Notes under the pieces: generated by a model
Told to the model about the DNA's origin: nothing
The model's input: the letters and a program-made list of their open reading frames with translations, nothing else
Databases searched by the model: none
Made by a program: the position numbers and the translations under genes
Origin: Antedon bifida
Lineage: Eukaryota; Echinodermata; Crinoidea; Comatulida; Antedonidae
Direction of reading: 5' to 3'
Assembly (NCBI GenBank): GCA_963402885.1
Contig: OY727096.1
Coordinates: forward strand, 26,703,820 to 26,767,819
DNA: 64,000 bases
Shown: positions 16,101 through 22,100 of the stretch, in pieces
How positions within the stretch are numbered: the first letter of the stretch is position 1
Layout: each line of letters begins with the position of its first letter

Positions 16101-19100
16101 ACAAAAAGAGAGGTTTAAGACTGTTTTAAGACTCCTTCGAGTAGGCTTTAATTTTAAAGACCGTTTACAGGTTAGACCGCGGTATAGCAATGGTCTATAA
16201 TATAAGACTACTTGCTACGTCACGAATTATAGCCGGCTAAGCGCTAAGACCGGTTATAGACCGCTTATAGCAATCCGCCCCTGACGTTGCGTCCTAGTGG
16301 GAACCAAGCCTGAATAGTAGTAGTCTCTACAGGATGCTAGTTATCATGTTTGTTAGGTTGCGTCCTAGTGTAAACCAAGCCTGAATAGTAGTAGTCTCTA
16401 CAGGATGCTAGTTATCATGTTTGTTAGGTTGCGTCCTAGTGTGAACCAAGCCTGAATAGTAGTAGTCTCTACAGGATGCTAGTTATCATGTTTGTTAGGT
16501 TGCGTCCTAGTGTGAACCAAGCCTGAATAGTAGTAGTCTCTACAGGATGCTAGTTATCATGTTTGTTAGGTTGCGTCCTAGTGTAAACCAAGCCTGAATA
16601 GTAGTAGTCTCTACAGGATGCTAGTTATCATGTTTGTTAGGTTGCGTCCTAGTGTGAACCAAGCCTGAATAGTAGTAGTCTCTACAGGATGCTAGTTATC
16701 ATGTTTGTTAGGTTGCGTCCTAGTGTGAACCAAGCCTGAATAGTAGTAGTCTCTACAGGATGCTAGTTATCATGTTTGTTAGGTTGCGTCCTAGTGGGAA
16801 CCAAGCCTGAATAGTAGTAGTCTCTACAGGATGCTAGTTATCATGTTTGTTAGGTTGCGTCCTAGTGGGAACCAAGCCTGAATAGTAGTAGTCTCTACAG
16901 GATGCTAGTTATCATGTTTGTTAGGTTGCGTCCTAGTGTAAACCAAGCCTGAATAGTAGTAGTCTCTACAGGATGCTAGTTATCATGTTTGTTAGGTTGC
17001 GTCCTAGTGTGAACCAAGCCTGAATAGTAGTAGTCTCTACAGGATGCTAGTTATCATGTTTGTTAGGTTGCGTCCTAGTGTGAACCAAGCCTGAATAGTA
17101 GTAGTCTCTACAGGATGCTAGTTATCATGTTTGTTAGGTTGCGTCCTAGTGTGAACCAAGCCTGAATAGTAGTAGTCTCTACAGGATGCTAGTTATCATG
17201 TTTGTTAGGTTGCGTCCTAGTGTGAACCAAGCCTGAATAGTAGTAGTCTCTACAGGATGCTAGTTATCATGTTTGTTAGGTTGCGTCCTAGTGTGAACCA
17301 AGCCTGAATAGTAGTAGTCTCTACAGGATGCTAGTTATCATGTTTGTTAGGTTGCGTCCTAGTGTGAACCAAGCCTGAATAGTAGTAGTCTCTACAGGAT
17401 GCTAGTTATCATGTTTGTTAGGTTGCGTCCTAGTGGGAACCAAGCCTGAATAGTAGTAGTCTCTACAGGATGCTAGTTATCATGTTTGTTAGGTTGCGTC
17501 CTAGTGTGAACCAAGCCTGAATAGTAGTAGTCTCTACAGGATGCTAGTTATCATGTTTGTTAGGTTGCGTCCTAGTGTGAACCAAGCCTGAATAGTAGTA
17601 GTCTCTACAGGATGCTAGTTATCATGTTTGTTAGGTTGCGTCCTAGTGTGAACCAAGCCTGAATAGTAGTAGTCTCTACAGGATGCTAGTTATCATGTTT
17701 GTTAGGTTGCGTCCTAGTGTAAACCAAGCCTGAATAGTAGTAGTCTCTACAGGATGCTAGTTATCATGTTTGTTAGGTTGCGTCCTAGTGTGAACCAAGC
17801 CTGAATAGTAGTAGTCTCTACAGGATGCTAGTTATCATGTTTGTTAGGTTGCGTCCTAGTGTGAACCAAGCCTGAATAGTAGTAGTCTCTACAGGATGCT
17901 AGTTATCATGTTTGTTAGGTTGCGTCCTAGTGTAAACCAAGCCTGAATAGTAGTAGTCTCTACAGGATGCTAGTTATCATGTTTGTTAGGTTGCGTCCTA
18001 GTGTGAACCAAGCCTGAATAGTAGTAGTCTCTACAGGATGCTAGTTATCATGTTTGTTAGGTTGCGTCCTAGTGTGAACCAAGCCTGAATAGTAGTAGTC
18101 TCTACAGGATGCTAGTTATCATGTTTGTTAGGTTGCGTCCTAGTGTAAACCAAGCCTGAATAGTAGTAGTCTCTACAGGATGCTAGTTATCATGTTTGTT
18201 AGGTTGCGTCCTAGTGTGAACCAAGCCTGAATAGTAGTAGTCTCTACAGGATGCTAGTTATCATGTTTGTTAGGTTGCGTCCTAGTGTGAACCAAGCCTG
18301 AATAGTAGTAGTCTCTACAGGATGCTAGTTATCATGTTTGTTAGGTTGCGTCCTAGTGTGAACCAAGCCTGAATAGTAGTAGTCTCTACAGGATGCTAGT
18401 TATCATGTTTGTTAGGTTGCGTCCTAGTGTAAACCAAGCCTGAATAGTAGTAGTCTCTACAGGATGCTAGTTATCATGTTTGTTAGGTTGCGTCCTAGTG
18501 TGAACCAAGCCTGAATAGTAGTAGTCTCTACAGGATGCTAGTTATCATGTTTGTTAGGTTGCGTCCTAGTGTGAACCAAGCCTGAATAGTAGTAGTCTCT
18601 ACAGGATGCTAGTTATCATGTTTGTTAGGTTGCGTCCTAGTGTGAACCAAGCCTGAATAGTAGTAGTCTCTACAGGATGCTAGTTATCATGTTTGTTAGG
18701 TTGCGTCCTAGTGTGAACCAAGCCTGAATAGTAGTAGTCTCTACAGGATGCTAGTTATCATGTTTGTTAGGTTGCGTCCTAGTGTGAACCAAGCCTGAAT
18801 AGTAGTAGTCTCTACAGGATGCTAGTTATCATGTTTGTTAGGTTGCGTCCTAGTGTGAACCAAGCCTGAATAGTAGTAGTCTCTACAGGATGCTAGTTAT
18901 CATGTTTGTTAGGTTGCGTCCTAGTGGGAACCAAGCCTGAATAGTAGTAGTCTCTACAGGATGCTAGTTATCATGTTTGTTAGGTTGCGTCCTAGTGTGA
19001 ACCAAGCCTGAATAGTAGTAGTCTCTACAGGATGCTAGTTATCATGTTTGTTAGGTTGCGTCCTAGTGTGAACCAAGCCTGAATAGTAGTAGTCTCTACA

Positions 19101-22100
19101 GGATGCTAGTTATCATGTTTGTTAGGTTGCGTCCTAGTGTGAACCAAGCCTGAATAGTAGTAGTCTCTACAGGATGCTAGTTATCATGTTTGTTAGGTTG
19201 CGTCCTAGTGGGAACCAAGCCTGAATAGTAGTAGTCTCTACAGGATGCTAGTTATCATGTTTGTTAGGTTGCGTCCTAGTGTGAACCAAGCCTGAATAGT
19301 AGTAGTCTCTACAGGATGCTAGTTATCATGTTTGTTAGGTTGCGTCCTAGTGTGAACCAAGCCTGAATAGTAGTAGTCTCTACAGGATGCTAGTTATCAT
19401 GTTTGTTAGGTTGCGTCCTAGTGTGAACCAAGCCTGAATAGTAGTAGTCTCTACAGGATGCTAGTTATCATGTTTGTTAGGTTGCGTCCTAGTGTGAACC
19501 AAGCCTGAATAGTAGTAGTCTCTACAGGATGCTAGTTATCATGTTTGTTAGGTTGCGTCCTAGTGTGAACCAAGCCTGAATAGTAGTAGTCTCTACAGGA
19601 TGCTAGTTATCATGTTTGTTAGGTTGCGTCCTAGTGTGAACCAAGCCTGAATAGTAGTAGTCTCTACAGGATGCTAGTTATCATGTTTGTTAGGTTGCGT
19701 CCTAGTGTAAACCAAGCCTGAATAGTAGTAGTCTCTACAGGATGCTAGTTATCATGTTTGTTAGGTTGCGTCCTAGTGTGAACCAAGCCTGAATAGTAGT
19801 AGTCTCTACAGGATGCTAGTTATCATGTTTGTTAGGTTGCGTCCTAGTGTGAACCAAGCCTGAATAGTAGTAGTCTCTACAGGATGCTAGTTATCATGTT
19901 TGTTAGGTTGCGTCCTAGTGTGAACCAAGCCTGAATAGTAGTAGTCTCTACAGGATGCTAGTTATCATGTTTGTTAGGTTGCGTCCTAGTGTGAACCAAG
20001 CCTGAATAGTAGTAGTCTCTACAGGATGCTAGTTATCATGTTTGTTAGGTTGCGTCCTAGTGTGAACCAAGCCTGAATAGTAGTAGTCTCTACAGGATGC
20101 TAGTTATCATGTTTGTTAGGTTGCGTCCTAGTGTGAACCAAGCCTGAATAGTAGTAGTCTCTACAGGATGCTAGTTATCATGTTTGTTAGGTTGCGTCCT
20201 AGTGGGAACCAAGCCTGAATAGTAGTAGTCTCTACAGGATGCTAGTTATCATGTTTGTTCGGTTGCGTCCTAGTGGGAACCAAGCCTGAATAGTAGTAGT
20301 CTCTACAGGATGCTAGTTATCATGTTTGTTAGGTTGCGTCCTAGTGTGAACCAAGCCTGAATAGTAGTAGTCTCTACAGGATGCTAGTTATCATGTTTGT
20401 TAGGTTGCGTCCTAGTGTGAACCAAGCCTGAATAGTAGTAGTCTCTACAGGATGCTAGTTATCATGTTTGTTAGGTTGCGTCCTAGTGTAAACCAAGCCT
20501 GAATAGTAGTAGTCTCTACAGGATGCTAGTTATCATGTTTGTTAGGTTGCGTCCTAGTGTGAACCAAGCCTGAATAGTAGTAGTCTCTACAGGATGCTAG
20601 TTATCATGTTTGTTAGGTTGCGTCCTAGTGTGAACCAAGCCTGAATAGTAGTAGTCTCTACAGGATGCTAGTTATCATGTTTGTTAGGTTGCGTCCTAGT
20701 GGGAACCAAGCCTGAATAGTAGTAGTCTCTACAGGATGCTAGTTATCATGTTTGTTAGGTTGCGTCCTAGTGGGAACCAAGCCTGAATAGTAGTAGTCTC
20801 TACAGGATGCTAGTTATCATGTTTGTTAGGTTGCGTCCTAGTGTGAACCAAGCCTGAATAGTAGTAGTCTCTACAGGATGCTAGTTATCATGTTTGTTAG
20901 GTTGCGTCCTAGTGTGAACCAAGCCTGAATAGTAGTAGTCTCTACAGGATGCTAGTTATCATGTTTGTTGAGGACGGATTATCCTACAGTCGATAAAGAT
21001 TTGTTTAAAAATTCGTTTTCTTGAACAATAATCTCGCATTTTTATACTATAGGGATCGGAATGGAGAAAGCACAAACCACCACATACTACATAGTGTAGT
21101 CAACTCATTTGTAGAAGTTGAAAAATACAAGAAAAAGCAACAATTAAAGGTAAGTAAAATGTAGGAATTAAAATGTTAAGGAATAGTAATTGGTAAAAAA
21201 ATAAACATATTGATGTCTTCGTTCATTTGACATGAATGTGTTCCATTAATAAGGGTGTCTTCAGAATAGGGATTGGCCGTACTTTGATGACATAATTGAC
21301 CCTAGTTCATTTGACGGAGTCTCCTTAATAGGGACATTCCAAAGCAGGGTTCTACTGTACTGTATAACCTTTTATATTTGTTTATTTTTAAAGCTTTACC
21401 AAGAAATATTTGAGGAGAAATTTCTTGAGGAGACTGGACAGTACTATAAACAAGAAGCTGCTAAATTACTACAGGAATATAACTGTTCCCAGTACATGGA
21501 AAAGGTAGCAATTAAAAAAAAAAGATTGAGACAGAAAAATAATAATAATAACTTCTTAAAAAAAAAAGAATTAAAAATGAATTAAAAACTGATCTATCTG
21601 TAATTTCTTAGGTGCTAGCACGACTAGGAGAAGAAACAATAAGAAGTCGGAAATTTCTCCATCCTAGTTCTTATCCGACTGTCACAAACGAATTTCAGCA
21701 GCGGATGGTCGCGGATCATATGAAATTCTTACATAGTGAATGTAGGGATAAAGTACGAGAAGAATCAACTGAAGGTAAAGTGAAAATGTACATTTTTAGA
21801 GGTGTGAGTGGCCAATCGGTTAAAACTGTTATTACGTAGCTGTACCATCGGCAAGGGTTCAAGGCTCACTCGCTGCATGGTTCTGGTGGTAGAACGTGTC
21901 CCCTCTCATAAAGACTATAAACCGTAGGTCCAGTGTACACACCTACTGTATCCTATGTGCACTTTAAAGAACCTAGTACATCTTTTGAGACGAGTAGGGA
22001 GCGCATAGAGACTGTTCGTATTTTGCGCTATATAAATTTAAAACCATTAAACCATTAGGGGGTTACCCCGGTGTACTAGTACACACACAGCCTCTGTCAC

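Follow-up and report, generated by a model that had tools for sequence, protein, structure and literature searches.

A uniform 66-unit minisatellite in a CUL2 intron of the crinoid Antedon bifida, probably seeded on the end of a small transposon

How does an array of 66 nearly identical units come to lie inside an intron of CUL2? The question is raised by a 64,000-bp stretch of the Antedon bifida genome (C9:26703820-26767819 in a 315.6-Mb, 27-contig assembly; hereafter the window, whose positions are used below unless a contig is named), in which an earlier note, made from the sequence alone, had described a 71-bp satellite. The answer that we favour, with a probability of about 0.8, is that this locus-specific minisatellite arose at the end of a miniature inverted-repeat transposable element (MITE), here named MITE2, by a tandem duplication over the junction between the element and its flank, followed by expansion and homogenisation. 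The array and the two parts of its unit are located as follows.

16286-20971, forward strand: minisatellite, 66 × 71 bp, with zero length variants (Tandem Repeats Finder and cutting by 71)
16286-16309, forward strand: unit positions 1-24, the MITE2 end present in each unit, GTTGCGTCCTAGTGGGAACCAAGC in unit 1 (consensus alignment and motif search)
16310-16356, forward strand: unit positions 25-71 in unit 1, 47 bp of locus-specific DNA (39-bp pattern search)

Tandem Repeats Finder reported a period of 71, 66.0 copies, 99% matches and 0% indels over 16286-20969, and cutting the array by 71 produced 66 full head-to-tail units over 16286-20971, none longer or shorter, confirming the number and constant length of units given in the earlier note. 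Its account of their variation, one polymorphic site plus one other substitution, needs amending, because two adjacent unit positions, 15 and 16, are variable and define three unit types (TG, 47/66; GG, 10/66; TA, 9/66); the further substitution exists, as A>C at position 70 of unit 56. Unit 1 is of the GG type, and the final two bases of the last unit deviate, at the array edge. Units 1-65 show a mean pairwise difference of 0.54 per 71 bp (0.76%), a uniformity that supports recent expansion or homogenisation, as had been proposed, without separating the two alternatives.

The unit belongs to this locus only. A 39-bp stretch of it, searched with up to 3 mismatches, occurs at 66 sites in the assembly, and 66/66 lie inside this array, with zero matches elsewhere in the assembly, on the other strand or for the reversed control; likewise, a whole-genome search with two units returned a single candidate place. 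A minisatellite is a single-locus tandem repeat with a unit of 10-100 bp, and what we find is a head-to-tail array with a unit in this range (71 bp × 66) at one locus, whereas satellite DNA is abundant, its unit being found in many or very long arrays or in heterochromatic blocks. The confinement of all 66 matches to the array therefore makes it a minisatellite and not part of a satellite family, so the name "satellite" has to be given up, and the search for dispersed or centromeric copies that the earlier note had proposed found the locus-specific part nowhere outside the array. It is exceedingly improbable that a block of dispersed or centromeric satellite landed in the CUL2 intron, tandem, homogeneous and kilobase-scale as the array is, because the 39-bp part is exclusive to it and the two-unit search has one candidate place; we rejected a satellite or centromeric origin on these grounds. 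A striking intronic array in a gene need not, then, mean satellite invasion.

The remainder of the unit is a transposon end. MITE2 is a nearly palindromic element of about 157 bp, whose consensus we built from 30 copies fetched by similarity (1,278 first-look candidates, 40 of them scored) and which has the attributes of a MITE: it is short, present in high copy number (3,609 exact end motifs) and bounded by terminal inverted repeats. The consensus ends in CTAGTGGGAACCAAGC, and unit 1, of the GG type, aligns to its positions 133-157, the last 25, with one 1-bp gap. Allowing up to 1 mismatch, the end motif occurs 1,921 times genome-wide (982 + 939), the 66 array units included, as compared with 0 for the reversed control. 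The other 47 of the 71 bp have no MITE2 alignment, and 39 of those are found nowhere else in the genome. Since positions 1-24 match the abundant MITE2 end and the 39-bp remainder is exclusive to the array, the unit is a MITE2 end (1-24) joined to locus-specific flank (25-71). At the two variable sites, the right ends of MITE2 copies read GG in 22/28 cases, AG in 3, GA in 2 and TG in 1 (28 readable of 30); because GG dominates these ends, it was probably the original state of the unit, from which TG and TA derive, a polarity that we infer from these letters; the first unit is also GG.

Arrays built on the MITE2 end recur in the genome. A search for pairs of MITE2 end motifs in the same orientation, spaced 40-70 bp apart, found 154 head-to-tail pairs (61 + 93; control 0) among the 3,609 occurrences of the motif (control 0). 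An interior MITE2 motif is present 4,435 times (reversed control 1), yet it forms only 4 pairs, at 4 loci, 3/4 of which look repeated in the letters that matched. From these proportions, 154/3,609 against 4/4,435, tandem growth is concentrated on the end side of MITE2. The CUL2 array is missing among the 154 pairs because its period of 71 just exceeds the range searched, and an array of 28 × 57 bp on C1 turned up through the search for the end motif with up to 1 mismatch. The 100 pairs listed of the 154 resolve into 20 loci on C1, C7, C8 and part of C9, eight with at least two listed pairs and 12 with one. Thus at least nine other arrays in the genome, eight from the pair search and the 57-bp array on C1, are built on the MITE2 end. 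The extreme homogeneity of the CUL2 array and its position in a CUL2 intron are confirmed, but the claim that it is unusual may have to be qualified, since the genome has other long arrays; on the MITE2 end there are 55 × 50 bp at C8:7.24 Mb and the 28 × 57 bp at C1:0.22 Mb, and beside a MITE1 copy (see below) a 21-bp array exceeds 70 copies.

We compared 22 loci, namely the 20 from the pair search, the 57-bp array on C1 and CUL2, splitting each unit by local alignment to the consensus. The MITE2 part of the unit measures 16-67 bp. At 8/22 loci one such part directly adjoins the next, leaving no more than 1 bp unassigned, at a TTTA/TTAA-like target site; 3/22 have 3-5 further bases, and 11/22 have 7-47 bp beyond MITE2, CUL2 having the longest such stretch, although at C1:6506990 and C8:7892791 some of the sequence assigned as "other" resembles MITE2. 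Three of the 10 multi-copy arrays (the eight, the 57-bp array on C1 and CUL2) are directly self-joined and seven carry the extra 7-47 bp. The left-edge comparison covers eight other arrays, with the left edge of L075 outside it: three start straight in a long MITE2 match, with scores of 101, 103 and 108 (L070, 28 × 57 bp; L087, 19 × 68 bp; L088, 10 × 48 bp), four have weaker matches of 36-55 (L085, where it lies about 70 bp off the array, L089, L091 and L093), and L086 has no left-edge MITE2 match outside the unit. Mean pairwise differences among same-length units in eight other arrays range from 0 (L086, 5 units) to 2.8%, and the value for CUL2 is 0.8%.

Two further arrays were noted in the vicinity of MITE2 copies: one of 21 bp directly adjoins a copy (L041, 1668-1852), and one of 19/76 bp stands some 1.2 kb from another (L047, 2887-3136), with MITE2-like subterminal letters, TTGCGTTGCG and GACGCAACGC, across the two.

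These observations are consistent with the following course of events. A MITE2 copy or remnant would have been present in the CUL2 intron, and a short tandem duplication would have linked two points, about 24 bp inside and 47 bp outside its end, creating the 71-bp unit, which would then have expanded to 66 copies and been kept uniform through unequal exchange or conversion. Neighbouring units differ by 0.52 and any two units by 0.54, with variants scattered and unclustered; neighbours are therefore as different as any two units, which argues against slippage one unit at a time. Conversely, variant units recur at lag 7 (10 pairs vs 4.7 expected, p 0.002; 0.02 over 30 lags), and the spacings between them take just four values, 1, 3, 4 and 7 (p 0.001). 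This recurrence and narrow set of spacings suggest the copying of multi-unit blocks of about 0.5 kb, so that growth may have proceeded in blocks of some seven units.

MITE2 ends are thus a recurrent start for minisatellites in this genome; the recurrence is observed, and differing flanks suggest that each birth was independent. Their proneness could come from joining at short homologies, or from slippage, within the subterminal part of MITE2, which is rich in repeats; this is suggested by the 8/22 loci at which the TTTA/TTAA-like site meets an internal TTACGTTGCG-type stretch of MITE2 with almost nothing in between. A bolder proposal, doubtful in our view, is that the outer ends of MITE2 are hot spots of de novo minisatellite birth, where nicking by the transposase, an aborted excision or trouble at a fork duplicates element and flank, and that at least 10 arrays, perhaps dozens, with two to 66 copies and CUL2 among them, would be independent products of this one process.

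Seeding on MITE2 has to be weighed against the second element in the intron, which lies directly beside the array.

15748-16283, forward strand: MITE1, a 536-bp inverted-repeat element, CAGGGGTGGATTGCTATAA...TTATAGCAATCCGCCCCTG (CAGGGG...CCCCTG), which stops 2 bp before the first unit (genome-wide similarity)

In a genome search in which 40/161 candidate places were scored, five other copies matched the CUL2 copy of MITE1 at 99-100% over most of its length, and MITE1 is therefore young. Its 3-bp flanks are identical in 7/17 two-ended copies (of 20), against 3.2 by shuffling, and the CUL2 copy has CAG/CTG, with no direct match. The recent insertion of MITE1 might itself have set off the expansion, through a break or an aborted transposition at its edge, and the 2 bp between its right end and the first unit, together with the recent activity indicated by near-identical copies, would agree with this. 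So would the observation that 3/20 MITE1 loci examined (CUL2, L013 and L024) touch tandem arrays and that a 248-bp duplication at L024 takes in both flank and element start. However, repeats flank MITE1 on both sides at L013 and L024, as expected for insertion into pre-existing repeats, and MITE1 may therefore simply insert into such DNA; moreover, the other arrays have MITE2 in common and no known MITE1, although not each was searched for it. We consider it unlikely that MITE1 started the array. Similarity between the unit and MITE1 was also rejected, the best E of that comparison being 0.63. In their own right, the MITE1 copy at L013 (C15:21.58 Mb) lies within a 21-bp tandem array, with at least 71 copies to its right and about 15 to its left; the duplication by the copy at L024 (C9:22.1 Mb) reaches about 30 bp into the element, making this a second family with duplication of end and flank; and some 0.4 kb from the MITE1 copy at L010 (C13:11.45 Mb) there is a tandem repeat of 286 bp in 2.9 copies.

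Nor does it seem at all probable that the array is the cargo of a repeat-bearing transposon variant moving as a unit, as for Tetris and the Xenopus MITEs. The units do contain MITE2 ends and subterminal repeats, and the 8/22 loci that are nearly all MITE2, joined at the target site (three multi-pair arrays and five one-pair loci), could be copies of one variant; but CUL2 and 10 other loci, six of these 10 being multi-copy arrays, have 7-47 bp unmatched to MITE2, and these parts differ in sequence, save two that share a MITE2-like piece, that of CUL2 being unique in the genome. Long uniform arrays are prone to assembly error, and the true copy number could be much lower or the units copied by the assembler, a possibility to which we give little credit: the array, with unique sequence to its right and MITE1 next to a unique exon to its left, measures 4.7 kb, which long reads would span with ease, and three interspersed unit types speak against a simple copying loop. 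Finally, the array shares strand and intron with a ubiquitin-ligase gene, and an acceptor-like TCTCTACAG can be seen in the sequence of every unit, as if it controlled CUL2 splicing or transcription and were kept uniform by selection. Yet the predicted folding of two units does not surpass that of shuffled sequences (z 0.44), the unit is at one locus only and recent expansion explains its uniformity, so that such a role appears very improbable; the origin on a MITE2 end would need no function of the array, and we claim none.

Several observations nevertheless weigh against seeding on the MITE2 end, or against parts of it. Left of the CUL2 array we see no longer MITE2 body, MITE1 lies in between, and a fuller MITE2 at this locus would follow by analogy with the other loci. 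The pair counts overstate the contrast between end and interior, because pairs within one array are non-independent and a locus with one pair is not necessarily a duplication; if arrays are counted instead, 8 loci, from 100/154 pairs, stand against 4 interior loci, 3 of them apparently repeated. When 3/12 one-pair loci were read, L091 was a clear two-copy repeat (96%), L090 may be either a repeat that has diverged or another element, and at L092 only the end is shared, with no tandem duplication. The end-side excess may, moreover, be due to short repeats within subterminal MITE2 and not to the end itself. Lastly, the lag-7 test treats both variant types alike, and type-preserving higher-order repeats in the variant map are weak (in the three statistics, 623, 1,122 and 421 shuffles out of 5,000 do as well), for which reasons the block model is provisional. 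Two candidates were rejected. The reading of L090, L091 and L092 led us to drop the view that all 20 pair-search loci are arrays. That MITE2 goes on beyond MITE1 on the left, in the 18 intron bases after the donor, was suggestive by eye, but 751/5,000 shuffles and 765/4,495 window 18-mers (15-17%) extend the match as well, so that it does not exceed chance and is not claimed.

The host gene could be read across the array.

15647-15729, forward strand: CUL2 exon 5' of the array, ending ...KEIR, phase 2 (in-frame join to 21053-21149; Cullin match over the junction)
15730-21052, forward strand: CUL2 intron of 5,323 bp, GTAAGG...TATAG (exon join)
20972-21052, forward strand: rest of the intron right of the array, single-copy (genome search)
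21053-21149, forward strand: CUL2 exon 3' of the array, beginning DRNGESTN (in-frame join; Cullin match)

Joined, the two exons yield a predicted 60-residue product that aligns in full length and without gaps to its top chain, a CULLIN_2 domain-containing protein (E 1.3e-17). The chains that bear the name Cullin-2, starting at 9.4e-17, far outscore those named cullin homolog or Cullin-1, which appear only from 3.7e-6, and the predicted gene name CUL2 is thus well supported. The placement of the array in a CUL2 intron is borne out by this in-frame join and by the Cullin-2 matches, and the earlier note was also right about splicing: as the flanking exons are in frame across the array, it has to be spliced out for a normal protein. 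Presumably it is transcribed along with CUL2. Without MITE1 and the array, about 100 bp of the intron are left. The right flank of the array has one candidate place genome-wide, the other matches being only to the 30 bp of unit within the query.

Further observations on MITE2 and on transposases in the genome provide the setting, beginning with a MITE2 copy in the same gene.

26559-26704, forward strand: MITE2 copy between later CUL2 coding stretches, whose inverted ends match the unit start (similarity)

The left end of this copy holds a 13-bp tandem duplication, AGATGCAACGCAA, at 26575-26600 (Tandem Repeats Finder), which might show that process at an early stage. Elsewhere in the window, the same program found a 103-bp tandem array at 58707-59104, with 3.8 copies and 78% matches, which is more diverged. 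A 3-bp target duplication TWA is a feature of PIF/Harbinger transposons, and MITE2 is flanked by identical TAA/TTA on both sides in 12/24 two-ended copies (of 30), compared with 9.0 by shuffling, a test of little power, TAA/TTA being frequent. An autonomous partner of MITE2 from that superfamily would have a DDE_Tnp_4 transposase and share its ends. The genome contains 150 DDE_Tnp_4 matches (150/215 candidates scored), several of them equal-scoring and without an internal stop, suggesting that transposons of this type may have been recently active. More than 12 matches with near-equal scores and a single TAA stop are spread over about 0.7 Mb at C8:21.52-22.20 Mb, possibly a large repeat with a broken transposase. 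As for the host, the mitochondrial COX1 of contig C27, translated with table 5 and compared by eye with a mammalian-type COX1 chain, has most of its ATA codons where isoleucine stands and several lysines where asparagine stands, which would agree with the mitochondrial code of echinoderms and hemichordates.

The start of a tandem array is usually invisible, the first duplication having been erased. In this genome a single transposon family provides several starts that look independent of each other, ranging from two copies (L091) to 66, and the units pair a recognisable ancestral sequence with a locus-specific flank, which makes the birth step, be it short homology, slippage or transposase damage, open to test.

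In Drosophila, satellite DNA has reportedly arisen from a double transposon insertion, that is, from a dimer of whole elements. There, as here, a transposon insertion supplies the first tandem copy, but the units that we compared contain just the last 16-67 bp of MITE2. In Tetris and TIR-220 of Drosophila virilis, the repeats are internal to the element and amplified in beta-heterochromatin, with unequal exchange proposed (PMC4079207). They resemble the present case in that tandem arrays come out of terminal-inverted-repeat sequence, whereas the units described here pass the outer end into flanking DNA and the CUL2 array lies within a gene intron. Xenopus has MITE-borne tandem repeats, the Xstir motif in the Xmix terminal repeat and the miDNA4 motif within a MITE, as tabulated in a review (PMC9659126). 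These share with our arrays their source in a non-autonomous DNA transposon and rapid homogenisation; the CUL2 unit, unlike Xstir and miDNA4 as given in that table, straddles the element end and includes 47 bp of locus-specific flank. It is, therefore, not wholly inside the element, as units of the Tetris and Xstir type are. The same review lists human and mouse minisatellites from Alu, long terminal repeat (LTR) or B1 elements, which likewise originate in or beside a dispersed element (PMC9659126); the present observation is of arrays that cluster at the end of one DNA-transposon family. No earlier description of recurrent minisatellites made of element end plus flank was recognised by title, in a search that left most subscription journals outside, and we do not claim their absence from print. 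The CUL2 array is a transposon-derived minisatellite and, as such, of a known kind; it is the repeated birth of arrays at the ends of one family that is the interesting part.

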